Shown: positions 3,904 to 28,121 of the stretch, piece by piece | How positions within the stretch are numbered: the first letter of the stretch is position 1 | Layout: each line of letters starts with the position of its first letter | Virus record (IMG/VR): IMGVR_UViG_3300007539_000057 | Span: 1 to 38,955 of that record | Reading direction: 5' to 3' (one strand) | DNA: 38,955 nt | Source: a virus | Position numbers and translations under genes: made by a program | The notes under the pieces: generated by a model | Seen by the model: the letters and a program-made list of their open reading frames with translations, nothing else | Databases searched by the model: none | What the model was told of the DNA's origin: nothing

Positions 3904-5874
3904 TCAAGCGATAGCAAGGAAGATGTAGTTGCCGCCACTGGCGTTGAGGGCGGCAGGCGCTGATGAGGTCACCGTAAATCCAGAATTTAACGGATCAATG
4001 TAGTCAGTGTTTGTGACTTGGTTAGCATTAACATTAAACCTAGCATATGGGTCATTGCCGGCAATGATGCCACGAACAGAATCCCACCAATACCAATCAC
4101 CTGTACTATCTGTGCGCTTGATAAGTATAAATCGAGCGCCTGCGGTGAAGCCACAATCAACGTCTACGTTATTACCTGTTCCGGAGTAGCTGCCTACTTT
4201 TGATATTCCGTCAAGGGTTGCAAAGAGGTAGGCTATGTAATTATTGCTGCTTCCATTGATGGCGGTGTCAGACCCAATGTAAAAAACAGAAGAAGTTGCC
4301 GCTGAGGTGCTATTGAATGCACTTACACCAGTACTTAAACCAGAACTTTGATCTAATCTAATCCCTGTATTGGTTCCGAAGATACCAGTGTATTGAGACC
4401 ACCAACCATCGGCATTTGTTCTTCTTTTCGTGATCAATAGTTCTGGTGTAACTGTTAAGTTATGGCTAATGGCACGATTGCTAGTGCCATCCCCTGCCCA
4501 AGCCACCATATCAAAGAACCCTGGAGCACGTTTCAATGAAAATCCTGCAAAACTGTGACCATTCAGGTTAAATGAACTATCACTACCTATTTTAACGGCA
4601 CCATCCTCCCTAAACTCTAGAACGCCTTGAGCAGCGGTGTATTCAGCATCTGTAGCACTGGTAACAAGAGGTTTAGATCTGCCTCTCAAAATATCAATAA
4701 AATGAGGTGTAGTTCCAATACTCAACCCTTGTACGTGCATTAAATCGGGTGCAAATGGAACGGTTAAAGCTTGAGATGAACTATTACCTGACCATTGAAA
4801 TGCTTTAAACACATCCGTTCCAGCCTCGGGCGGTTTATGCGGACGGCGGATTGCGATGTAGATGAAGTTATCATTAGTAGCACCACTAACGTGATGGTCA
4901 AATCCAGTTGGTTTTGGCGAAAATCTGTTATAACCTTCTTCATCATCAGCAGTATTTGCGAAAAGCCTTTTGCCCTCATCGATACCAGACTGAGTACCAG
5001 CGCCACGCATAATGTCAGCTATCTCCCAATTTTGACCTGAGTCATCATATTGTTTTGTAATCAAAAATTGAGGTTCAAACCCAATGTTAACGAAGTTATT
5101 GGGACTGCTTGCTCCTACAAAAGTTCCACATTTAATAATCGCCTCGTCACTATCCGTACCAAACGATTGATCATCGTGAGCGAAAATGTAGGCAACATAT
5201 GTTTCACCATTAGTGTTCACACGAGCATGCGTACCTACTGAAAAAACAGTGGATGTTGGTTCTGTGTCATTCCATATCGTCGATAAGGTTGCCGCAGACG
5301 AAAGGTTGGAGCCATTAAGCTGTACGTATTTGGTAGCTCCAAGACTTCTATGCCAACAAGTCCAATCCTCAGTATTACTAGTTCTTTTCACAATGATAAA
5401 TCCAGGCGTACTGCCAATACTATGAGAAATGGTCCGATTACTACCGTTTCCGGTCCAAGTTACGATATCAAAAAATCCTGGGCACTTGCGAAAAGTCCAG
5501 GAGCAATAACTACCATCACCATTGCCATTAAATTGTGCATTATTGCCACCTAAAGTAAACCCATCACTGTTGAAAGAAGTCGGACCATAGGGTGCGTCTG
5601 TGTAATCAGCATTGCTTACATTCGTTTGTAGTGCGTCGTAATATGACCCAGTTTTTCCTCTTTCAGAATCATGAATCATATGATTCTCATTCGCGACCTC
5701 TCTAGCCTTAGTCCATACCATTCCACCTTCACCCGCTAAATCAATTCCATTCGTGATCGTTTGCGTGCTTCCAGTGCCATCCCACAAGTCAACACTGAAT
5801 ACATCATCAACATATAAAGGATCACCTCCTGATCCAGAAGCACCAAGAAGTGTGTTAGTATGAAATAAACTCAT
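3904..5874 (-). CDS. Fibre or adhesin protein with repeated DUF7483-type modules
   Basis: 656 aa. It contains at least two copies of a module starting PGFFD(I/M)V(T/A)W(T/A)G(N/D)G, followed by ISH and then (I/L)I(V/T)KR with many Trp residues, near residues 130 and 455. The same module type occurs at the C-terminus of the 1880-aa protein. It resembles what I recall as the DUF7483 family of marine phage structural proteins; the family name is from memory. The N-terminus (MSLFHTNTLLGASGSGGDPL) begins directly with a short linker. The ATG overlaps the stop of the upstream 618-aa fibre as ATGA and no separate Shine-Dalgarno sequence is seen, so translation is probably coupled. The aromatic modules may bind glycans, but this is inference. 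Confidence 0.88.
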   Translation of the reverse strand: MSLFHTNTLLGASGSGGDPLYVDDVFSVDLWDGTGSTQTITNGIDLAGEGGMVWTKAREVANENHMIHDSERGKTGSYYDALQTNVSNADYTDAPYGPTSFNSDGFTLGGNNAQFNGNGDGSYCSWTFRKCPGFFDIVTWTGNGSNRTISHSIGSTPGFIIVKRTSNTEDWTCWHRSLGATKYVQLNGSNLSSAATLSTIWNDTEPTSTVFSVGTHARVNTNGETYVAYIFAHDDQSFGTDSDEAIIKCGTFVGASSPNNFVNIGFEPQFLITKQYDDSGQNWEIADIMRGAGTQSGIDEGKRLFANTADDEEGYNRFSPKPTGFDHHVSGATNDNFIYIAIRRPHKPPEAGTDVFKAFQWSGNSSSQALTVPFAPDLMHVQGLSIGTTPHFIDILRGRSKPLVTSATDAEYTAAQGVLEFREDGAVKIGSDSSFNLNGHSFAGFSLKRAPGFFDMVAWAGDGTSNRAISHNLTVTPELLITKRRTNADGWWSQYTGIFGTNTGIRLDQSSGLSTGVSAFNSTSAATSSVFYIGSDTAINGSSNNYIAYLFATLDGISKVGSYSGTGNNVDVDCGFTAGARFILIKRTDSTGDWYWWDSVRGIIAGNDPYARFNVNANQVTNTDYIDPLNSGFTVTSSAPAALNASGGNYIFLAIA

Positions 5875-7753: not shown

Positions 7754-10700
7754 TTAGCGGGCATTAGCACCCCCACCAAACAAGTCAACTGTTGGTGCTT
7801 CTGCCCAGGCACAATAGATGTAAGTATAACCGGCATTCCATTTGCTTTGGCTGTTGCGAATCTTGAAACCGTTAGACAAGAAGTCAACGTAGTTACTGGT
7901 TGAAGAATCTTCCTGTCCATTAGTGTCAGGTTTTAGTACTTTACCAGCAGGATTAAATTTATTTCTTTGATTATCATGAACTACCCAATTACCAGATGCA
8001 TCAATATTTTTCACCCATAAAATTGAGGGACGAAAACCTAATTCTACGTAGGGACCATTATCATCAGAATTTCCTTCGTAACTGCCAAATTTCTGCAGTC
8101 CGGGGATTTCTGCCCACATATACAAAATATAATCATCACCATTATAATTTAAAGATTGTTGACTATTGGGAGTTGTTGCATTAGAAACTGTTATTATTGA
8201 TGTTGTTGGAGCAACACCCCCCCAAGGTCTTACATTATTTGTATTTGGTGCGGCATCAGTTGTATTTAAATAAAGCGCATTTCTATAATAATCATAACCA
8301 GATGGTTCAAATTTGTGATGAAGAACACTCCAATTATGACTTTTATCTAAATTTTTTGCTATCACAAATGCTGGCACTTTACCCATATTGTGAGAAAGTT
8401 GTTGCTCCGAACCAGCATTTGAACCTGTACTGTTCCCTGTATATTTTAGGATTGAAAATCCGTTTTTTGTATTCACGGAAGCACCTGTAAGATTTCCTGA
8501 TGTTAATCCTGCAGCAGTTGTTGTTGCATAACCTACATCATCAATATAGTAGTTATTTACTGGTGCTGGTCCACATGCGGTATTTGTTACTACAGTTCCA
8601 TTAATTTCAAAAGCAAATACCAAAACATAACTGTTAGTATTGTAACTAGATCCAGCACTACCTTCTTTAGTCCAAGTAACACTTTGTATATCTGTTATAT
8701 AATTAGTTCCACTTGAATAGACATCGTGCCATACTCTAAGATTAGTGTTTACAGTTATATTTACTGTTCCTCCACTATGTACAACTGTTAATGTTCCTCC
8801 ACTTCCCCCATTTGCATATCTTGTTGCATGTATTCTAAAACTTGTAACCGAATTTGCTTCTGTCCAGTTAGTGGGAGACCAAGTTAGTGATGGATCAGGT
8901 AATGCATATGTATTTACACTTCCATCAAATAGATTATCATATGAACCTTCTCCAGAATATACATTTCCTGTCATTCTCGTAGTACATCTCAGATCAGGAT
9001 CAAGGTTTCCACCAGCCTTCCAGCACCAACTAACATAATCATCACCGTCTTTATTTACTAACCATCCACCTCCACCTGAATCATCTTTCAGAGTAAAACC
9101 GTTAAAATCAAATTTGGTTAACGTGCGATCATAAGAAGTTCCATCATTTGATTTGTTTACTGCATTAGGATAAAGATACTGATAAGCACCTCTAACAGTA
9201 TCAAAAAGCATATGGTTTTCAGTTGAGTCTCTATTCTTAATCCACACTAAATCTGGTTTTGCATTAAATTTAAGATCACTAATGGACTTTGTACCTCCAT
9301 TACCAATGTAAGTAGTAATACCAACATACTGATCAGGACGAGCAATCACAGTCTCTGGACGTGTATTAGCAGCATTCATTGGTTGGAAACCATCTGGTGG
9401 TGGGAACTTAAAGGTTCTTTGACCAGCATTAAGGATATAGCCAGTAAAATCAGCGGCATTCGCCCAATCATTTACAAATAAAACCCACGACTTATTTGAC
9501 TGCATTGTGTGTGGAAAAGTTCCAATGCTAGTGCCATTTTTGTAGAACGTTACTTGCGGTGTATCACAATCAATGGCAATTCCAATAGTGTCATTCTCAT
9601 CAAATCCATAAGAAGACTGATAAGTGTTATTGGTGTCGCCACTGCCGGTGCCAATAGTTCCTCTGATTACACTACTATTGGAGTCGATAGACAACGCTCC
9701 ATCAGCACGGAATATATCTTGACCAGTGTAGTTAGCGGCAGAATCAGTCGGAACAATACCAATGTAGTTGTAATTGGTATTGTGACTCATTGTCCCTTCA
9801 AAACTGATTTCACAGTAATACTTGCCACTACTTACCGGAATCGTGCTAAGTGTATATCCATAACCCGAGTTTATCGCATTAGCAGTAAGGTTTCCATCGC
9901 TTGTAGTGACTATACCTCTATTGGTCAAGGGGTTCCAAGTAGCATAACCAGTCTCTTGTCCACGAACTGTGTTGATATCAGTGTTGAATGGGTTGAAGTT
10001 GGTTGCTGTTACGTTTCCGACTGCAATTGGACCTCTATCTACCAGTAAACTGTCATCCACTTCCCATGCACTTACATATGGACCAACAGCACTAGCACCT
10101 GTTGTCCATGTAATACTAGTGATTGGACTGGTTACATTAGATGTGACATCATAATACTGTGCTCCTGCATTCAAAACTGTAAGATCATAACTACCACCAT
10201 CCCAATTGAAAGTGATTGTGCCAGTAGATCCACTACCTTGGGCACGCACTCTTAATTTAGAAGAAAATGCTAAACCACCTGGTATTGTCCAGTTGACATT
10301 AGATGAATCTCCAGCAAGATAAGCACTAACCTCACTAGAATCAAACATCTTATCTTTTGAATAAGTGGCATTATAGTCACTTCCAGACACTTGCAATGTA
10401 TATTGCTGACCAGTTCCAGGAAATACAGCAGCCTCAGTTGCAGATGTATTTGACTGACAACACAGAAGTTTTGTGTTGGTTACATTTGTGAGTGGTGCAG
10501 ATGGTGGTGTGAAGTTTGATGTGTAGAGTGCCGATTGAACTACACGGAGATTAGAGATGATACCTGTAAGTTCTGAACTTCCAACAGTTGAATCATCACC
10601 AATATACAAAGTACTGGCATCAAAATCAACTGAAACTGTTCCGTAATCTTTATCTAATTTTCCATCAATATAAACTTTAAGATTATTGCTACTTCTAACT

Positions 10701-13396
10701 GCTGCAACGTGGTGCCACCCAGATTTAACTACATTTAGATCTCCTCCCGATGCTCCATTTGATTCCCAATTGACTCTAATTCCATCACTATCTTTTATTA
10801 TGACTAATGAACCTGTATTATTATTTTGTCCTAATGAAAACACTCTTGAATCAACAGTGCTATCGGAATATATAAAAAATTCAACGGTAAAATCATTAGT
10901 TCTAATCATACTTCCAGCACTTGATACAGTGAGACTAGTACCAGAAGAACCATCAAAACTCACAGCACCTTCAGTAATCTTGGTGAGTTTAGAACTACCA
11001 CTTACACCTGATGGAGTGTCTGGGAGAATATCTGGGTTGGTTGCAGGAACTACAAAGTCACTGGTGTATTTTGCTACTCCTTTGTAAACACGGAAGTCTT
11101 GAATGTATCCTACCCAAAGATATGATGTGCTAAAATATCCACCAATAGCAAGATATGTTCCACTATAATTCCTTGAATCTGAAATTGTTGTAGCATCCTG
11201 AATTCCATTTACAAATAGTTTTGTAGTTCCAGAATCACGAACCACTGCCAAGTGAACCCACTTGTCTGTAATAACTGATGTGGACATTGGTGTCGCAGTA
11301 TCATTCGCATATATTCTGTATTTACTGTCATCATGCGCCTGCAAGGTTATAGAGTTTGAATTTGAAGGATTCAGTCCACCAGAGTTTGTTGATATTTGAA
11401 AAATGCCATCATTACTATCAGCATTAGAAGTTTGATAAACCCAACACTCAACAGTAAAATCACCAGTACCAAATGATAAATCAGAACTACTACTACTCAA
11501 ATAATCACCAGTACCATCAAATTCAAAACTACCAGCATAAAAGTTGCTCTGCTCATTTGCTGCAGCAGCATCACCATTTGATGTTACTGACTTATTTGTC
11601 ATGGTGCAGGCAATAGAAGCACATACATCATTATTGACACCAACTAACGGAGATGCAAAAACGATATTTGATGCATATTGATCTGCTAACTTCTCATTTG
11701 TGGTGATACCTGTGATATCAGCTCCCATCCCAGAGTGAGACGTACAATAATAATATAAGGTATTTGGAGCATCATGCGGAACAGTAATGGTTGTTGCTGC
11801 ACCTGTGATTGCTGCTACACCATTTGTATACTCTGATCCACCACCATGACTTCCGTTACTAGTCGCAGAAAATCTAAATGGGTGTGATGATACTGTGCTA
11901 TCAGATGTATCAAAGGTATATGTTGCACCACGAATTAATCCTGTAACTGTATCTTGCTTAACTCCATCAATATAATACTTGTTTCCACCACCATCATTAT
12001 AGACAGTGACAGCATATCCTACATTCTGCTTACTTCCAAATACACCAACTCCTGCATGTGTTCCACCTGGAGTTGTATTCAGAATGGGTTTTGCACCTGT
12101 TGATTTATCAAGTTCTACTGAACCACCAAAGTTTACTGGTGTCCAGTTGTTTCCATTGTTAAACTTATCTTCTACAATTGGTGAGTTTCCATCAAACGGA
12201 AGATAAAACGAATTTCCACCAGTATTGAAAGTATCTCTTACTAAATTCTGAACATGAAAAGAACCAGTATCAAAAGTTGGAAGAGTTGCTGATGATAATT
12301 TTCCAGCACTTGTGGGATTAGCAGTGCTAGCATTAGCACAGAATACAAACATGTTTCCACCATCAATACCAAGATCTTTACCTATTGTATAGGGTGAATA
12401 TGAAGAACTGGTTGAATATCTCCATTGATTCCACTCACCAGCACTTGAATTATATGATGCGGCATTGAACCAATTATCACCTTCACTAGTATCATAATAA
12501 AAAACTCTAGTGGTTGTGCCTCCACTACCGTCATCAAAAGATGCAGTATCAGTCCATACTGGATAATCTGGTGAATTGGCTCCACCACCACTATTTGCAT
12601 ATCCACCATCATTGAATACTAGATAGCAATATTCATTGCTTACAGTTACACCACCATTTCCACGATCTGTAGCATTAGCAACTACATCAGCAACACTAGT
12701 ATATAAAGTTGCTGAAGAATACCACTTTGGATTAGTAAAAGTTCTCTTAGGAAATTCTACTTTTTTAGGTTTCCAAGTATTTGTGAGTGGATCAGTGAAT
12801 CCAAAATATTCAGGTCCAAGTGCTTGACCATCTATGAAATATACATTGGAAAGATGTCCATCATACCAAACACTAGTAGCACCTGCTTGATTTCTACCTG
12901 CACCTACTTGATGTAATATACCATTATTATTGACCAGAAACTCAAAGTTTTCTGTAATTGTAGGAAGATTGGATATTAATTGTTCTGCTCCATTGACATA
13001 TAATTTATCTCTATCAGAAGCAGCAGCAGTGGTATCTACTGCCATAACAATGTGATACCAGGAAGTATCCCTGAAAAATGCACTTGTTGGAATTACCCAA
13101 GTTCCAGGGTTTCCACCTGTATTGTGCCTAATATATACGGATAAAGGATTAATTTCAAACGATAATTGTAAATATCCTACGTCGCCAGAGGCTGATCCTG
13201 CACTAAACAATACAGGATATGCTGCAAGTTCACTACGTTTTGTCCAACAAGAAAAAGTAAATGTTCTTCTATTACCTCTATAACTTGGAGTTTTTTTTAA
13301 AAATTGTTCGTTATCATCATTAAACCTCAAACTGCCGTCAATAACCTGAGCACCTGATGCACTATCAGGGGTGATAACGTGTGCTATTCCTGCCAT
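7754..13396 (-). CDS. Giant multidomain adhesin: LamG, cupredoxin-like, SPRY-like and DUF7483-type modules
   Basis: 1880 aa. Apparent order: a LamG/concanavalin-like jellyroll at about 14-210; an unassigned region; a cupredoxin-like segment at about 445-565 with H505, C551, H554 and M557 (motif YYYCTSHSGMGA); a second LamG at about 610-790 (FTVECWVYQTSN, WVHLAVVRDSG); a third at about 815-985 (FTVEFFIYSDS, WHHVAAVRSS); a SPRY-like region at about 1150-1330 (GKYYCEISFEG, VTFYKNGTSIGTFPHT); and Trp-rich DUF7483-type modules to the end. LamG and SPRY folds usually bind glycans or proteins, so host-surface recognition is the likely role. No signal peptide or membrane segment is seen. The start has a good GAGAGG Shine-Dalgarno sequence in the 11-nt gap after the 731-aa gene. 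An eight-A run occurs near codon 33. Confidence 0.9.
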   Translation of the reverse strand: MAGIAHVITPDSASGAQVIDGSLRFNDDNEQFLKKTPSYRGNRRTFTFSCWTKRSELAAYPVLFSAGSASGDVGYLQLSFEINPLSVYIRHNTGGNPGTWVIPTSAFFRDTSWYHIVMAVDTTAAASDRDKLYVNGAEQLISNLPTITENFEFLVNNNGILHQVGAGRNQAGATSVWYDGHLSNVYFIDGQALGPEYFGFTDPLTNTWKPKKVEFPKRTFTNPKWYSSATLYTSVADVVANATDRGNGGVTVSNEYCYLVFNDGGYANSGGGANSPDYPVWTDTASFDDGSGGTTTRVFYYDTSEGDNWFNAASYNSSAGEWNQWRYSTSSSYSPYTIGKDLGIDGGNMFVFCANASTANPTSAGKLSSATLPTFDTGSFHVQNLVRDTFNTGGNSFYLPFDGNSPIVEDKFNNGNNWTPVNFGGSVELDKSTGAKPILNTTPGGTHAGVGVFGSKQNVGYAVTVYNDGGGNKYYIDGVKQDTVTGLIRGATYTFDTSDSTVSSHPFRFSATSNGSHGGGSEYTNGVAAITGAATTITVPHDAPNTLYYYCTSHSGMGADITGITTNEKLADQYASNIVFASPLVGVNNDVCASIACTMTNKSVTSNGDAAAANEQSNFYAGSFEFDGTGDYLSSSSSDLSFGTGDFTVECWVYQTSNADSNDGIFQISTNSGGLNPSNSNSITLQAHDDSKYRIYANDTATPMSTSVITDKWVHLAVVRDSGTTKLFVNGIQDATTISDSRNYSGTYLAIGGYFSTSYLWVGYIQDFRVYKGVAKYTSDFVVPATNPDILPDTPSGVSGSSKLTKITEGAVSFDGSSGTSLTVSSAGSMIRTNDFTVEFFIYSDSTVDSRVFSLGQNNNTGSLVIIKDSDGIRVNWESNGASGGDLNVVKSGWHHVAAVRSSNNLKVYIDGKLDKDYGTVSVDFDASTLYIGDDSTVGSSELTGIISNLRVVQSALYTSNFTPPSAPLTNVTNTKLLCCQSNTSATEAAVFPGTGQQYTLQVSGSDYNATYSKDKMFDSSEVSAYLAGDSSNVNWTIPGGLAFSSKLRVRAQGSGSTGTITFNWDGGSYDLTVLNAGAQYYDVTSNVTSPITSITWTTGASAVGPYVSAWEVDDSLLVDRGPIAVGNVTATNFNPFNTDINTVRGQETGYATWNPLTNRGIVTTSDGNLTANAINSGYGYTLSTIPVSSGKYYCEISFEGTMSHNTNYNYIGIVPTDSAANYTGQDIFRADGALSIDSNSSVIRGTIGTGSGDTNNTYQSSYGFDENDTIGIAIDCDTPQVTFYKNGTSIGTFPHTMQSNKSWVLFVNDWANAADFTGYILNAGQRTFKFPPPDGFQPMNAANTRPETVIARPDQYVGITTYIGNGGTKSISDLKFNAKPDLVWIKNRDSTENHMLFDTVRGAYQYLYPNAVNKSNDGTSYDRTLTKFDFNGFTLKDDSGGGGWLVNKDGDDYVSWCWKAGGNLDPDLRCTTRMTGNVYSGEGSYDNLFDGSVNTYALPDPSLTWSPTNWTEANSVTSFRIHATRYANGGSGGTLTVVHSGGTVNITVNTNLRVWHDVYSSGTNYITDIQSVTWTKEGSAGSSYNTNSYVLVFAFEINGTVVTNTACGPAPVNNYYIDDVGYATTTAAGLTSGNLTGASVNTKNGFSILKYTGNSTGSNAGSEQQLSHNMGKVPAFVIAKNLDKSHNWSVLHHKFEPSGYDYYRNALYLNTTDAAPNTNNVRPWGGVAPTTSIITVSNATTPNSQQSLNYNGDDYILYMWAEIPGLQKFGSYEGNSDDNGPYVELGFRPSILWVKNIDASGNWVVHDNQRNKFNPAGKVLKPDTNGQEDSSTSNYVDFLSNGFKIRNSQSKWNAGYTYIYCAWAEAPTVDLFGGGANAR

Positions 13397-19662: not shown

Positions 19663-22600
19663 TCAGTTCAGGAAGTTTTGACCACTTACAACGCCATATA
19701 GACCAGATGTTGTCGGATTTGAACCATCAAAAATCTTGAATGAATAAATGTCAGTTCTACTTGCGGTTGTCGTAACTTGTGGCACAACATTTCCTGGCCA
19801 ATAGACTGGAATTGTGGAACCACCAGTGGTCTTAAATGTATCTATACCAACAGAGCGACTGCCTGTTGCATCCTGCTCAACTCTTAATGTAAATGAGGTT
19901 GCTTGAATTGGTAAATTAGTCAAAGTAAATTGCGTAATATCCGAAGTAGCAGTACAAATGAATGTCTGAGCCTGTGAAAGATCAACCGTAACAACATTAG
20001 ATGAGATATCAAGATACTTAACTCTCTCAGAGTAAGTCTTGAAGAGTGTATGTCCATCAATATCAAGTGTTGCCTGAGGCGTGGTGGAGTTAATACCGAC
20101 AGATCCAACACCAACTGAATTTGATGATGTAATGATTGTTCCACCAGTTCCAACATTTAGTGTTCCGATAGTTGCAATACCAACATTTATTCTACCAGTT
20201 GAACTATTATCAAGATCATAATCTGATGCAGTAAGAACACCAACAACTATCGCATCTTTAGTCGTGACTATACCGGTAAAAGTACCCTGCCCATGAACTA
20301 ATAAAGTTGTGCTTCTACCAGCACCGGCATTTTCATGAATATCACCAACTGTTAAGTTAACACTAGTTACAGATGTTCCGATACCAACAGATCCGAGAGA
20401 AGTATTATAAAGAATACCTCCATCGTTTGTCCAACCAGCAGCAGATACATTAATATTCGTTAGATTTGAACCATCACCGCGGAAAGTTGTTCCAGTAATA
20501 ACTCCAGCATTAATATTGCCACCAATATTGACATCCCCAAAGACGTGCAGTTTATATCCATTGGCAGTTGTACCAATACCAACTCCGTCTCCATCGACTG
20601 AAAGTTGAGTTGTTCCAGCACCAATTTTAAATGTTGCTTCACCAGGTCCGGTAGTTCCAACACCAACCTTATTAAATACCATGACGTTGGAATCAGTTTC
20701 TAAACTGATAGCACCAAAACGACGCCAATCATTTTGAACACTGTATATCCAACCAACATAATCGCCATCAGTCGGATTAGCATTGTATACTAAATCACCT
20801 GGGTTACCAGACAATGTTGGAGTTGCAATACCAACAGTATATTTTCTAGATACTGTTGCGTCTCCTTGTAAGAATAGTGAGTTAGATTCAACACCCTTGG
20901 GTGAATTAATCGTCAGTTTATTGTTAACAATAATGGGTCCATTAAATTTAGAGATAACCTTGTTATCTGGACCACCCTCAACTTTAATCGATCTTGAGAA
21001 TACACCTTCTACAGGTTCAATAACATTAAGATTTGGAAGTTCTGCAATATCTTCACCCTCTATAGTTTCTACAGGAGTGTCAAAAATTTCTTCTCTACCA
21101 GTGATTGTACTAAGACGTTTATTACCAGAATATGAAATACCCTTATCATTCATTCCAGTATAGAAGTTAATTCCACCATCTCTTTTACCAGACTGTGATA
21201 ACAGTTCTTCATCAACAGAAATAGCACGATCATGTTTATCTGGGAATGCAGTAGAGTAATTACCAGGTCCAAATCCTACGTACTCAAATGTATGTCCTGA
21301 AGCACGAATAATTGAGTGTCTTCTAAGTTCAATAGGTTCAATTCTTACTCTTCTAATTACAGAGTTGATTACATGAGAAGTTGCTTTTGATCCAAGAATA
21401 CCACGGAATACAGTAACTGGATTTGAACCAGTTGTTGTGGTCTTGACTCTCATTATCTCACTATTAATCATTAAGTAATCACCAATATTAATGTCAAGAT
21501 CACCTATTGACTGTATTGAAATTTGATCAGTTGTAGCATTTACAATTGCCGACGATATTGTGGTGGTAATTCCAGCATAGGTTGGAATCATGCGTCCAGA
21601 CAAGTTTTCATTTTCAACGGTAATATTACCATCATTAGAAGTGAATCCCTCAGGAAGAGCAAAAATAGTTCCAGAGGCGGATGGAGCTAAAGTGCTAACA
21701 CCAAGTTGAACTTCAAATGAAGTGAGAGAATTAATTTTAGTGACAATGAATGAACCATTATATTGAGTCTGATCTGCTCCAGCAATTCTTACTTTTCTAT
21801 CAACAGATAATCCATGTCTATTATGTGTGGTCACGGTAGCGATACCAGACACACCTGTATATGTAAAGGTATTGACATTGATTACTTCGCCAGTTACATA
21901 GAAATACGCATCTGATGTTAAAGTAGCACCGATTGATCCCGATATCTTATCTGCTGAGATGGATGATGCTGCCGCGACACTAACTGTAGTGGCAGATCCA
22001 ATTGCAACATCAGTAATCCTATAAAGTTGATTATAATCGGAGTAGGAATCGGATTTCACTCCAACCATTCTTATGGTATCACCTACATTATTATAAATTT
22101 TACTAACTTGAACCACTGCTTGAGAGAATGATCCAGTAGTAGTAACCCCAACAACGTTCATTGTGTTGCCAATACCATATGCGGAACCACCGTCCATGAC
22201 TTTCACGGCAGTGATAGTTCCACTTGCATTAACAGTTAGTTTTGCTGTTGCATGTTTTCCCGTAACAGAGGCACCAATTGATACCAATTTAGCATTGTAA
22301 ATATCTCCTGCAGATCCAGATCCATATCCCGCACCACCATCTACGATAGAAAGTTGAGTAACTCTATTCAGACCATGATCATACTGAGTGTGTATAGTAT
22401 GAGCAACACCAGTTGCTGATGATATATCAGTAATTCCTATACCAATATTTTTATCATCATTTATTTTGTTAACAGTCTCTTTTGTAACACTTTTTCTTGG
22501 GTCATCAGTTTCAACGAGACCAATTAAACTAGATGTTGCAAAACAAGTTGCGGCATCTGGGTCAGAGACAGGATTATCTCTACTTGTTTGTGGAAAAAGT

Positions 22601-25584
22601 TCTTTAACTGGTTGAGAATATTGATCGCCAGTAAATGGGGAAACGGTTGGAGAATTTGATGCATTAAGAACACTTACATAGTAAACACCATCTTGCTCTC
22701 CATTGATATATTTTTGAGCTTCCGACAGTCTATAAACATAGTAAGTATTAGAATACTTTTTACGTTCAAAGTAAGGAAGTGATGTCGTTCTTGTATCAAC
22801 ATCATTCGTAAACGTTCCTGGGTCGGTGGTCAATCCAACTGTAAAGGTTTTTGAACTAGAAATACCTGTCACACTAAAATGTCTATTAAATCCTAGATTT
22901 TGTGTGCCTGTAGAGTTATTTGTACTTGTAATATTTTTTATAGCAACTAATGATCCAACTGAAAGGTTGTGTGGCAGTTCAGTGTCAATGATAGCACTAG
23001 ATCCATCCCAACTAGCACCAGATATAAATCTAAAATTTCTTTGTTGATTTACATTCGTAAGAGAACCACTTCCAAAATAGGTTTGAATCTCTGAATCAGT
23101 TGAACCTATGGACGTATTAGATTCCTGAATAATGAATCCTTCAATAGGTGGTCGTGCTGCAGCACCAGAATTTTGTGGGATAACGTATCTCATTCTATAA
23201 GTTCTATCAATAGAAGATCTTGTATCAGATTTTCTATTGATAAATGTTCTTGGTGTGGCTTGACCAAGTGAAGTTGTGCCTAAACTTACAATGGTTGGAT
23301 AGATACTATTTTCTGTTGATGCGGTAGCTACCTTAATATACCATTGAGAATTAGTGGAATCATATTGAACTGGATGTCCAATATCTCCAGAATTTTTATC
23401 AGATACTCTACTTACAACCTTAAGTGATCCACCTTTTTCGTTAATCGTAAGAGGTGTTCCATTTATAGCATCATTAAGAGTTTTTGCAAGTTTAATATTT
23501 GTATTAGTTGTGATACCAGATCCAGTAGTGATCGCAAAAGCAACAACATTAGCAGTCAGTCCATCGGGAAGTTGTCCGGTGTCACTTAGTACACGAACGG
23601 ATTCTCCATTAATAAAATTATGTGCTCCGGTTAAGGTAATAACATTAGCATTACTACCGTCACTAAATGCACCGATACTATTAACACCTGCTATTCTTTT
23701 TACATCAAATACTTTTTCTGCGCTAGACTCAGGACTATCAGTATTGTCAGGCATAACAATACGAGCAGAATATTCGGTGACAATACCTGCTTGAGAAATT
23801 AAAACTCTTAGTTGATCATTAGTTCTTGCACCTACCCTAAATCCCTCTAAAACATTTTCTGGTGGTGCATCAACGTTTGTTTTATCAAGTAAATAAAGAT
23901 TTCCTGTGGATCCAACACCAGCAACTCTATCTGTTTTTGTAACATCAATAGATTCAAATTCAATAGAGGATTCTGTAAGTGGAATCTGTTTTGGTGGAAT
24001 AATATGAGTAATATATCCTTGATTATCTTGAGTAAACGCATCTGTTCTAAATCCAACAGAGGTAAGAGCATTTGCACCAAAGTTAGAGTTAGAGTTTGTT
24101 AAGGATATGTCACCACCATTCTCAGTAACAAAGTGTTCTGCAAATCCGATTGCAAAGATAGAAACTGCTTGGATGAAGGAATTATTTGATACCTTTACAT
24201 GAAAGTTTCTATAAGATGGTTTATATCTTGCCTTTGAATTGTTACTTAAAGTTTCATTTCCAGCAACTGTGCTATCATCATAAGTTCCAGTTGGTGGAGA
24301 ACTTTCATTATATTTAACAAAAGCATTATCATCCTTCTGCAATCCAATACCGGTAAATTGTGCAACAACCATTGATCTAAATCCAGTTGCTTTAGCACCA
24401 TCTGCCTCCATTCCACACATACCAAAAACAGATCTCAATGAGATGTTAAAAATATATGGAGATGCGGAAGTAACAGTATCAGATGACAATGATAAAGTTG
24501 ATCCAGCTACCGTTGGCAGTGGATTTGATGGAGCATTTTGAGTTTGATATTTAATTTCAGTGCTTGATGTTTTTTCTGATACAACAAACTGCCCATTAAA
24601 TCCAGATGCTGATATGCCCTCAATACGGAAAGGGGTATCTACGTCGAGACCAGATACTGCAGATGATGTTGTGACCGTGATTACATTACTAGCAGTAGTT
24701 CCGTCACCAGCTTTAATACTGGAAATGCCTACACTTTGACCTGTTGATCCAACAATACGAAACTCATCAATCTTGGGTTGAATATCAACACCCGCAGATG
24801 GATAATCTGGCTCAATAGGACGACCAGAAGATTGACCATATACGAGACCAACTTTCTCATAGTACATGTCCAGATCTGTTCTGGTGCTGGAGTATGTCAT
24901 AAAAGCATCATCAATGCTTACATTATTCACACCGTCTGCATATTCAAAACAAGTTAGTTTATGGTGTGAAAAATTTGGTACAAAAGTATTTGAGGTATAA
25001 TCTTTATATACAACACCATTAGGATCACCATCAAATAAACTAAACTGCCATATATAACAACCACCAGTTACTCTGAATACAGCAGATCTGGCAATATTAT
25101 CGTTTTGAGGATCTGGAACATATTTTGGACGAATTTTAGTTTTTCTTAAATCAAGACCAACAATCGATGTTCCTCTTGGAAGAATCACCCCTCCATTTAT
25201 ACTATTAAGTTTATATAATTCATTATTAGGTGATTCCAGATTTAAATTAGATGTTAAATCTAAAGGTGGAAGATCATTTGAAGTTGTTCCATCCCTTAGT
25301 CTGTAATTATTTGAACCATCTGGTATAAATCCAGGTCTATTGTCTACAAAATGCTCCCCCGGATACAATAAGATTGTAGTATTAGCAAATCTATCGTTAT
25401 TAAGTCCCCTTTGATATGAAAATCTGGCAGATTCTATCAACGCACGTTGAATCGTTTTAAAGGGACGAGTCAATGAATTACCTTTATTTTCGATACTATC
25501 TGTGGCGTCTAAACTATTCGGATCAACGTAAAGAATAGTACCGCGAGTAGATTTCAGAAAATTATCTAATCTGGAAAGACCCAT
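19663..25584 (-). CDS. Very large virion structural protein, beta-helix-like N-terminus and fibre-like C-terminus
   Basis: 1973 aa. The N-terminus (MGLSRLDNFLKSTRGTILYV, then RPFKTIQRALIESARFSYQR and NTTILLYPGEH) has the pattern of a right-handed beta-helix or pectin-lyase-like fold and is shared, as far as I recall, by very large cyanophage structural proteins. The middle has many fibronectin-like or beta-sandwich stretches. From about residue 1620 it turns fibre-like, with GVGIGTTANGYKLHVFGDVN and TTFRGDGSNLTN. The last 110 residues resemble the 618-aa fibre cap (FTLRVEQDATGSRSVGID). It is probably a baseplate-anchored hub for side fibres, inferred from size and domain mix; a polysaccharide-cleaving role for the beta-helix cannot be excluded. 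It has its own late box 29 nt upstream, just beyond a terminator. Confidence 0.9.
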   Translation of the reverse strand: MGLSRLDNFLKSTRGTILYVDPNSLDATDSIENKGNSLTRPFKTIQRALIESARFSYQRGLNNDRFANTTILLYPGEHFVDNRPGFIPDGSNNYRLRDGTTSNDLPPLDLTSNLNLESPNNELYKLNSINGGVILPRGTSIVGLDLRKTKIRPKYVPDPQNDNIARSAVFRVTGGCYIWQFSLFDGDPNGVVYKDYTSNTFVPNFSHHKLTCFEYADGVNNVSIDDAFMTYSSTRTDLDMYYEKVGLVYGQSSGRPIEPDYPSAGVDIQPKIDEFRIVGSTGQSVGISSIKAGDGTTASNVITVTTSSAVSGLDVDTPFRIEGISASGFNGQFVVSEKTSSTEIKYQTQNAPSNPLPTVAGSTLSLSSDTVTSASPYIFNISLRSVFGMCGMEADGAKATGFRSMVVAQFTGIGLQKDDNAFVKYNESSPPTGTYDDSTVAGNETLSNNSKARYKPSYRNFHVKVSNNSFIQAVSIFAIGFAEHFVTENGGDISLTNSNSNFGANALTSVGFRTDAFTQDNQGYITHIIPPKQIPLTESSIEFESIDVTKTDRVAGVGSTGNLYLLDKTNVDAPPENVLEGFRVGARTNDQLRVLISQAGIVTEYSARIVMPDNTDSPESSAEKVFDVKRIAGVNSIGAFSDGSNANVITLTGAHNFINGESVRVLSDTGQLPDGLTANVVAFAITTGSGITTNTNIKLAKTLNDAINGTPLTINEKGGSLKVVSRVSDKNSGDIGHPVQYDSTNSQWYIKVATASTENSIYPTIVSLGTTSLGQATPRTFINRKSDTRSSIDRTYRMRYVIPQNSGAAARPPIEGFIIQESNTSIGSTDSEIQTYFGSGSLTNVNQQRNFRFISGASWDGSSAIIDTELPHNLSVGSLVAIKNITSTNNSTGTQNLGFNRHFSVTGISSSKTFTVGLTTDPGTFTNDVDTRTTSLPYFERKKYSNTYYVYRLSEAQKYINGEQDGVYYVSVLNASNSPTVSPFTGDQYSQPVKELFPQTSRDNPVSDPDAATCFATSSLIGLVETDDPRKSVTKETVNKINDDKNIGIGITDISSATGVAHTIHTQYDHGLNRVTQLSIVDGGAGYGSGSAGDIYNAKLVSIGASVTGKHATAKLTVNASGTITAVKVMDGGSAYGIGNTMNVVGVTTTGSFSQAVVQVSKIYNNVGDTIRMVGVKSDSYSDYNQLYRITDVAIGSATTVSVAAASSISADKISGSIGATLTSDAYFYVTGEVINVNTFTYTGVSGIATVTTHNRHGLSVDRKVRIAGADQTQYNGSFIVTKINSLTSFEVQLGVSTLAPSASGTIFALPEGFTSNDGNITVENENLSGRMIPTYAGITTTISSAIVNATTDQISIQSIGDLDINIGDYLMINSEIMRVKTTTTGSNPVTVFRGILGSKATSHVINSVIRRVRIEPIELRRHSIIRASGHTFEYVGFGPGNYSTAFPDKHDRAISVDEELLSQSGKRDGGINFYTGMNDKGISYSGNKRLSTITGREEIFDTPVETIEGEDIAELPNLNVIEPVEGVFSRSIKVEGGPDNKVISKFNGPIIVNNKLTINSPKGVESNSLFLQGDATVSRKYTVGIATPTLSGNPGDLVYNANPTDGDYVGWIYSVQNDWRRFGAISLETDSNVMVFNKVGVGTTGPGEATFKIGAGTTQLSVDGDGVGIGTTANGYKLHVFGDVNIGGNINAGVITGTTFRGDGSNLTNINVSAAGWTNDGGILYNTSLGSVGIGTSVTSVNLTVGDIHENAGAGRSTTLLVHGQGTFTGIVTTKDAIVVGVLTASDYDLDNSSTGRINVGIATIGTLNVGTGGTIITSSNSVGVGSVGINSTTPQATLDIDGHTLFKTYSERVKYLDISSNVVTVDLSQAQTFICTATSDITQFTLTNLPIQATSFTLRVEQDATGSRSVGIDTFKTTGGSTIPVYWPGNVVPQVTTTASRTDIYSFKIFDGSNPTTSGLYGVVSGQNFLN

Positions 25585-26706: not shown

Positions 26707-26735
26707 ATTATAATACGGTCAGGGAGCAGCGTCAA
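26707..26735 (-). promoter_or_regulatory. Sigma70-like promoter (TTGACG, 17 nt, TATAAT)
   Basis: On the minus strand a -35 box TTGACG (26730-26735) and a -10 box TATAAT (26707-26712) are separated by exactly 17 bases. The predicted start site near 26700 lies about 17 nt before the ATG at 26683. The -35 box is inside the end of the 209-aa gene, whose stop falls in the spacer. Confidence 0.75.
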
Positions 26736-27348
26736 CATCTTGTTCCACTTCCAGCACTGGCACGTCTTTACGCATGGCATAGACTGTATAAAAACAATCA
26801 ATATTAGATCCACTTCCCGATTTAATTTTAACTTTTCTACCCCACTCAATTTTTTCAACAATAAGATCTTGAGATGATCCAATTTGCGTAAGAGTTACTG
26901 TTATTGTTTCTGGGTCTACAAGACCCATCCAGTAATCTGGAAGTTCAATTACAGTTTCATTTGTTAATCTTCCACGAACATAAACACCTAGCTCCGGTCC
27001 CTCTAAACAACCGTGAAGAAGTCTTTTGTTCTTCTTAGTTGGATGAGGTATATCAAAAAATTTAGATTCAGAACTAAAATTATTTGCATTAATAGTATTT
27101 GCATTAATAGTAAGAGATCCTTTTCCACTATCACCACTACCAGCTAATGTGTCATTGACTTGAATGGCATTAATTTGTGCTTTCTTGTGGTAATACGGTT
27201 CACAAGCATCATCTGGATAATCATCTTCACTTTTATTGCCATACCAAATATATTCAAAGTCAGTCATTGGTATTCCCCAACCACCGACGTGTTTGCTACA
27301 GTCTTGACTTCTTGGGGATGGAATAAACTTTTGTGCTGAATCTGTCAT
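26719..27348 (-). CDS. Virion structural protein, paralogue 2 of tandem pair
   Basis: 209 aa. Residues about 100-195 form a beta-rich module: FDIPHPTKKNKRLLHGCLEG, VYVRGRLTNETVIELPDYWM, then ITVTLTQIGSSQDLIVEKI. The pattern (F-I-HP, EGPE, VY-RG, ELP-Y, LT-IG) matches a C-terminal module I recall in many bacterial and phage fibre-like proteins, often near S74 domains. The neighbouring 253-aa protein has the same module. The N-terminal segment SQDCSKHVGG to SEDDYPDDACEPYY echoes the C-terminal tail of that paralogue. The Shine-Dalgarno sequence is GGAG, overlapping the end of the upstream stop. It is probably a tail decoration or baseplate component; exact place unknown. Confidence 0.87.
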   Translation of the reverse strand: MTDSAQKFIPSPRSQDCSKHVGGWGIPMTDFEYIWYGNKSEDDYPDDACEPYYHKKAQINAIQVNDTLAGSGDSGKGSLTINANTINANNFSSESKFFDIPHPTKKNKRLLHGCLEGPELGVYVRGRLTNETVIELPDYWMGLVDPETITVTLTQIGSSQDLIVEKIEWGRKVKIKSGSGSNIDCFYTVYAMRKDVPVLEVEQDVDAAP

Positions 27349-27359
27349 AATCTAATCTC

Positions 27360-28121
27360 CTAAACTTTTCCTGATTGTAAGTATTGATTGTTGTCTCCTG
27401 GATAATCCTCAGGAGATGTTCCCTCATACTCTGATATGTTTCTTTCGCAATCTTGCCTTTCACCATATACATGATAGAAACAATTAATTGGCATACCTCC
27501 ACGAGACTGAAGATATACTTTTTCTTCGTCAATTCTCTTTACTATTACGTCTTGATGGGCACCGATAGGAGTAAGATTGACAGTGATTGTAGTCCAATCA
27601 ACAAGATCTTTCCAATATAATGGTAACACAATCTCAGTTTTGTTTATTACTCTACCCCTACAATATACGTCAGCACTCGGTGCCTCAGGGGCAACATATC
27701 TAAGTCTCCACCCTTTTTTTGATGGATGCTCAATGTCAAAATCTTTCTTTGCTGCCAAGACATTGCCCTTATAATCAAAGACAGATAATCCAGAAACAGT
27801 TCCTCCTGCCTGAATTCTAAAATTTACATCAAGATTGCCAAGAACACCTAAGTTAGGAGAAATAATCGCACTATATGGATTACTCAATCCCAACGGAAGC
27901 GCACCTGGTGCAAATGGAGGTGGGGCATCAGAGTTTGCAAGAGGCCCTACATTTAGTCCAGCAAAAGGTGTAGGAAAATGAGTTGGTTGGCCGATAACTA
28001 CTGGACCCTCAATCATCGCAGACCCGTTGAATCTAGTAGCACCTTCACCGGTGGCTGGACAGATGCCCGTACCTACTTTTAACTGTCCACCGATATTTAC
28101 GTCGTCCAAATTAAATGACAT
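27360..28121 (-). CDS. Virion structural protein, paralogue 1 of tandem pair
   Basis: 253 aa. The N-terminal half starts MSFNLDDVNIGGQLKVGTGI and has fibre-like repeats and a Pro/Gly-rich stretch (SDAPPPFAPGALPLGLSNP). Residues about 130-230 carry the module FDIEHPSKKGWRLRYVAPEA, VYCRGRVINKTEIVLPLYW, ITVNLTPIGAHQDVIVKRI, paralogous to the 209-aa protein. It ends with RQDCERNISEYEGTSPEDYP, similar to the start of the downstream paralogue. The Shine-Dalgarno sequence TAGGAG overlaps the stop of the 207-aa gene. A structural role is likely; attachment site unknown. Confidence 0.87.
   Translation of the reverse strand: MSFNLDDVNIGGQLKVGTGICPATGEGATRFNGSAMIEGPVVIGQPTHFPTPFAGLNVGPLANSDAPPPFAPGALPLGLSNPYSAIISPNLGVLGNLDVNFRIQAGGTVSGLSVFDYKGNVLAAKKDFDIEHPSKKGWRLRYVAPEAPSADVYCRGRVINKTEIVLPLYWKDLVDWTTITVNLTPIGAHQDVIVKRIDEEKVYLQSRGGMPINCFYHVYGERQDCERNISEYEGTSPEDYPGDNNQYLQSGKV

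Follow-up and report, generated by a model that had tools for sequence, protein, structure and literature searches.

Cupredoxins are old, well-known proteins, and members of the plastocyanin/azurin/amicyanin family (PF00127) are mostly free-standing electron carriers. Amicyanin, in which the ligand loop has the spacing C-x2-H-x2-M, is the free-standing electron acceptor of methylamine dehydrogenase; the ligand loop of rusticyanin is longer than that of the viral domain described here. Metal sites of another kind occur in tail fibres: for T4 gp37 and marine phage fibres, iron binding at HxH motifs has been reported or proposed (PMC11705849). The site that we describe is also in a tail fibre, but it differs from the HxH motifs, which are not cupredoxins, in residues, fold and predicted metal. 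The open-access literature that we searched held nothing relevant on a cupredoxin, plastocyanin-like or copper-binding domain in phage fibres, and we found no description, in Pfam, the PDB or searchable open-access literature, of a cupredoxin that is widespread in virion fibres and retains its site intact. The C-terminal region of insect Knickkopf, considered as a region described as plastocyanin-like, was dropped, the paper containing no such statement.

Location of the domain in the fibre

We analysed a stretch of 38,955 nucleotides (IMG/VR virus record IMGVR_UViG_3300007539_000057, positions 1 to 38,955), referred to here as the window. An initial annotation had proposed an amicyanin-like copper site inside a giant fibre protein, in the interval 11600-12070. 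The features concerned are as follows.

7754..13396, minus strand: 1880-aa multidomain tail fibre/adhesin ORF containing the cupredoxin domain (LamG, SPRY and DUF7483 domains; PHROG virion structural and tail fibre families)
12833..13273, minus strand: LamG (ConA-like lectin) domain 1, residues 42-188 (Pfam PF13385)
11714..12022, minus strand: cupredoxin domain, about residues 459-561, modelled as 11693-12025 (AlphaFold2 pLDDT 89.4; top-50 PDB matches; HMM 135 bits)
11882..11884, minus strand: H505, first His ligand, in HPF (position check, PF00127 pairing, conservation)
11744..11746, minus strand: C551, Cys ligand, in YYYC (same three lines of evidence)
11735..11737, minus strand: H554, second His ligand (same three lines of evidence)
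11726..11728, minus strand: M557, axial Met ligand (same three lines of evidence)
11078..11518, minus strand: LamG domain 2, residues 627-773, the first domain past the cupredoxin (Pfam PF13385)
10526..10942, minus strand: LamG domain 3, residues 819-957 (Pfam PF13385)
9503..9685, minus strand: SPRY-like domain, residues 1238-1298 (Pfam PF00622)
7793..9337, minus strand: DUF7483 tail-fibre region, residues 1354-1868 (Pfam PF24299)

Codon coordinates place H505, C551, H554 and M557 exactly where they had been claimed, with C551 46 residues on from H505 as originally counted, and the domain proper falls within the proposed interval. The C-x2-H-x2-M loop, with its amicyanin spacing, occurs once in the 1880 residues against 0.0017 occurrences expected from composition, which, together with the conservation of the ligands across viral copies (below), rules out a chance motif. 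We also considered H517 (in SHGGG) as an extra ligand and rejected it, as several family members in the alignment lack it. Our reading, which we consider probable, is that fibre residues ~459-561 form a true cupredoxin with a complete type-1-like ligand set, serving as a metal-stabilised adhesion bead between LamG domains.

By Pfam, the cupredoxin lies between residues 231-445, which have no Pfam match, and LamG domain 2. Searches against PHROGs identified the whole protein as a virion structural/tail fibre protein, and the isolated cupredoxin domain matched baseplate-wedge/tail-fibre-connector and tail-fibre families. The neighbouring fibre ORF (19663-25584) aligns from end to end with the tail fibre of Synechococcus phage S-SM2 at 70% identity, which marks the window as a cyanomyovirus-type structural region; judged by sequence, its source is a cyanophage-like marine virus. 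In S-SM2 itself (L427 10882-12242), the genes immediately after the fibre cluster encode a 2OG-Fe(II) oxygenase and a ferrochelatase. Elsewhere in the window, ORF 3904-5874 has the C-terminal families phrog_19943 and phrog_24898 in common with fibre residues 1135-1868, which suggests that neighbouring fibres share modules, and the adjoining ORFs 26719-27348 and 27360-28121, both of which match PHROG families 28536 and 17490, look like tandem paralogues.

Predicted fold and structural matches

We modelled the window domain with AlphaFold2, using an alignment (A1) that comprised 47 viral-contig domains, and obtained a mean pLDDT of 89.4 and a pTM of 0.82. In the model, H48 (H505) immediately precedes strand 50-53, C94 (C551) ends strand 90-94, and H97 and M100 lie in the loop preceding strand 102-104. 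A His just before a middle strand, with Cys, His and Met in the loop that joins the final two strands, is in this predicted structure the cupredoxin arrangement; the model ranges and the pairing with cellular domains (below) thus put the type 1 copper-site series His...Cys-x(n)-His-x(n)-Met in the right secondary-structure positions. The initial annotation would have yielded to a fold that held the four residues far apart, and at the level of strands and loops the model gave no such fold.

In a Foldseek search of the PDB, a nitrite-reductase cupredoxin domain and rusticyanin came first (E 4e-4 to 1e-3, probability 1.0), and the best 50 matches were for the most part copper proteins, with amicyanin low among them at rank 49. 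With VIA-align, the model matched rusticyanin at Z 9.5 (95 residues, 2.5 Å) and the nitrite-reductase cupredoxin domain at Z 9.2, values that are moderate by themselves because unmatched models typically reach Z 7-8; the best 50 VIA-align rows were all cupredoxin proteins (rusticyanin, the nitrite-reductase cupredoxin domain and small laccases). A second model, built separately from an alignment of a divergent viral subfamily that also included four first-family members (A3), reached a pLDDT of 94.1, with Z 11.7 to the nitrite-reductase cupredoxin domain and Z 10.5 to rusticyanin. The fold assignment is convincing because the matches all belong to one functional class and the second model agrees. 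We conclude from both models and their PDB matches that the fibre carries a cupredoxin-type Greek-key beta-sandwich, as first proposed. The best structural matches, rusticyanin (2cal) and the N-terminal cupredoxin domain of Hyphomicrobium denitrificans nitrite reductase (2dv6), are both known redox proteins and have 16-23% identity to the viral domains. Sub-threshold Pfam matches of the window domain to CBM_4_9 and to the purple acid phosphatase N-domain were discarded, the structure search favouring cupredoxins. A sequence search of the PDB with the domain reached plastocyanin only at E 1.1 and returned no solved phage homologue.

The label 'amicyanin-like' needs narrowing. It holds for the spacing of the ligand loop, which the viral domain shares with amicyanin in length only, whereas among solved folds rusticyanin and the nitrite-reductase domain come nearest, and by sequence the closest family is PF25489; the viral domain is, moreover, embedded in a fibre, in contrast to free-standing amicyanin.

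Sequence relation to cellular families

We compared A1 with 30 cellular PF00127 (plastocyanin/azurin) domains using hhalign and obtained a score of 32.2 (probability 75%, E 2.4e-5), against at most 15.7 in 60 column shuffles and a background score of 15.5 for fn3, tried as a control beta-sandwich. The alignment paired the ligands H-H, C-C, H-H and M-M, and cellular members with an identical C-x2-H-x2-M loop were seen among the aligned domains. When the four ligand columns were masked, the score fell to 13.4, at background; the sequence link to classical cupredoxins therefore rests on the site itself. Ten of the 47 A1 members matched Pfam Copper-bind (PF00127) weakly (best E 0.0014), the best E for any member scanned being 0.0012, and the window domain did not exceed the gathering cut-off of that family in a Pfam scan. 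Thus the viral domain has the fold, ligand set and ligand order of PF00127 but differs from it in being one bead of an 1880-aa fibre, in having Pro after the first His and in scoring beneath the Pfam cut-off. PF13473 (Cupredoxin_1) gave no hhalign signal with the window family and a weak one with the second subfamily.

The strongest sequence relation was to PF25489 ('At5g54830-like domain'), with hhalign E values of 2.6e-18 for A1 and 9.4e-22 for A3 and the same ligand pairing as with PF00127; the PF25489 and PF00127 profiles match each other at 93% probability. The window domain is not above the PF25489 gathering cut-off, beneath which most viral members score; a few relatives do match (best E 3.6e-6). 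PF25489 shares the first His and C-x2-H-x2-M with the viral domain, within the motif YYxCxNHxxMGG, but has Asp rather than Pro after that His, and it occurs in cellular proteins (gammaproteobacterial secreted/lipoprotein-like ORFs) with other partner regions, whereas the viral domain occurs in virion fibres. Nothing in the name of the entry points to copper. Gammaproteobacterial genomes (L436-L447) encode secreted/lipoprotein-like proteins with PF25489 in which H and C-x2-H-x2-M are intact, and one of these proteins also weakly matches YfdX.

Electron-transfer cupredoxins and copper oxidase domains have this ligand set and fold, and the fibre might accordingly carry a redox-active site that accepts or donates electrons, or one that would react with superoxide, with peroxide or with a redox partner on the host surface. 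We regard this as unlikely, because only a mononuclear type-1-like site is visible, Pfam found no partner redox domain in the ORF and no partner is known.

Conservation of the four ligands

We scored the four ligands in 304 complete unique viral copies, in which they rank 1-4 in conservation, at 98.7-99.0% each. All four are kept in 300 copies, and the other four copies have NSNL, DCHL, MDQA and HSDT in their place. No single-ligand loss was observed where 12.6 would be expected under independence, and there were four multiple losses against 0.2 expected, figures that are descriptive only, since the copies share ancestry. In L054, an interrupted fifth copy likewise retains none of the four. 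The spacing from the first His to Cys ranges from 41 to 56 residues across copies, with H, C, H and M nonetheless constant, and Pro follows the first His in 295 of 304 copies, where plastocyanin and azurin commonly have Asn.

For most loci the fetch pattern contained some of the motif, so that conservation is overstated except in a motif-blind set, whose own pattern spans neither the ligand His nor C-H-M. In the motif-blind set, the four ligands are intact in 57 of the 58 scorable copies (one further fragment could not be scored), and the one exception has lost both H and M; two copies have THG and THQ replacing HP, with the His retained. Alignment of viral homologues, the check recommended at the outset, thus returned the proposed residues as the four most conserved columns. 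Among isolates found by tblastn, full-length copies with all four ligands occur in HTVC028P, Baldr, P-SSM2 (two copies), MED4-213, S-TIM54, S-TIM61, S-B68, 023Pt_psg01, S-ShM2 gp9 and S-RIM2 gp9.

These data bear on whether the cupredoxin fold has been reused as an adhesive beta-sandwich alone, metal-free and with the four residues as relics. The placement of the domain amid lectin-like modules fits such a reading, as do L051 copy 1, L060, L054 and L062, in which the ligands are lost and the fold is apparently kept. We nevertheless judge it quite unlikely, since the four residues outrank the core residues of the domain in conservation and are lost only in combination.

Nature and role of the site

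Ligand identity and homology indicate that the domain very probably binds copper in the virion. It would be a mononuclear cupredoxin serving as one bead of the virion adhesion device, most likely as a surface-contact module stabilised by metal; the part in adhesion is inferred from the neighbouring domains and annotations. Because the fibre protein would fold in the cytoplasm, copper would be loaded outside the cell, after lysis or at the host surface.

The sequence does not reveal the identity of the metal, and cupredoxin sites can bind zinc in vitro. That the site holds zinc or iron, or acts through a free cysteine, is nonetheless very unlikely: in a cupredoxin fold, Cys-His-His-Met in which the Met is axial is the classic combination for copper, and a disulfide role would not need the conserved His and Met. 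Least likely of all is a copper Ferrojan/Trojan horse, in which copper on the virion would attract or bind host receptors for metal uptake. The analogy is with the iron reported or proposed to be held at HxH motifs in marine phage fibres and T4 gp37 (PMC11705849); the cupredoxin domain is common in proteins of those kinds, but we found no link to a copper-uptake receptor.

We thus favour a metal-stabilised adhesion bead, and ocean phages may carry copper on the parts of the virion that touch the host. If so, phage adsorption would hinge on trace copper, virions would join the marine copper ligand pool, and the debated idea of iron in tail fibres would have a copper counterpart. Whether these are working blue-copper domains, many per virion, with copper needed for attachment or for host-surface redox, is more speculative; they would then form an undescribed class of virion metalloprotein, a possibility that we entertain tentatively.

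Distribution among viruses

Cyanophages and pelagiphages are among the most abundant marine viruses. The domain, a recurring and hitherto unannotated one that can now be labelled, was recovered from at least 320 phage records with an E threshold of 1e-3 and from 372 with a threshold of 10. The records are almost exclusively of Synechococcus and Prochlorococcus phages, plus pelagiphages, and one scan found the domain in at least 589 viral stretches. The mention in the initial annotation of similar segments in marine viral sequences is borne out by these counts. The carriers are fibres of cyanomyoviruses and pelagiphages, gp9-type baseplate wedge-tail fibre connectors and other virion structural proteins, with one to three copies per ORF. 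The gp9-type connectors of the cyanomyoviruses S-ShM2 (L342 1335-2279) and S-RIM2 (L343 1095-2327) terminate in the cupredoxin, with H, C, H and M intact.

A close relative of the window virus (L003 2-715) encodes, upstream of its fibre gene, another cupredoxin of divergent sequence (HPFYIKT...YYNCSVHSAM), a counterpart of which was not detected in the window. A search of BFVD brought in numerous structural proteins of cyanophages, along with a small number of 'beta-sandwich' proteins of giant viruses. The latter, A0A481Z6J5, A0A481Z7Q7 and A0A481YVH3, are predicted 'beta-sandwich proteins' of Pithovirus/Marseillevirus relatives and resemble the model at Foldseek E values of about 1e-5 to 3e-7.
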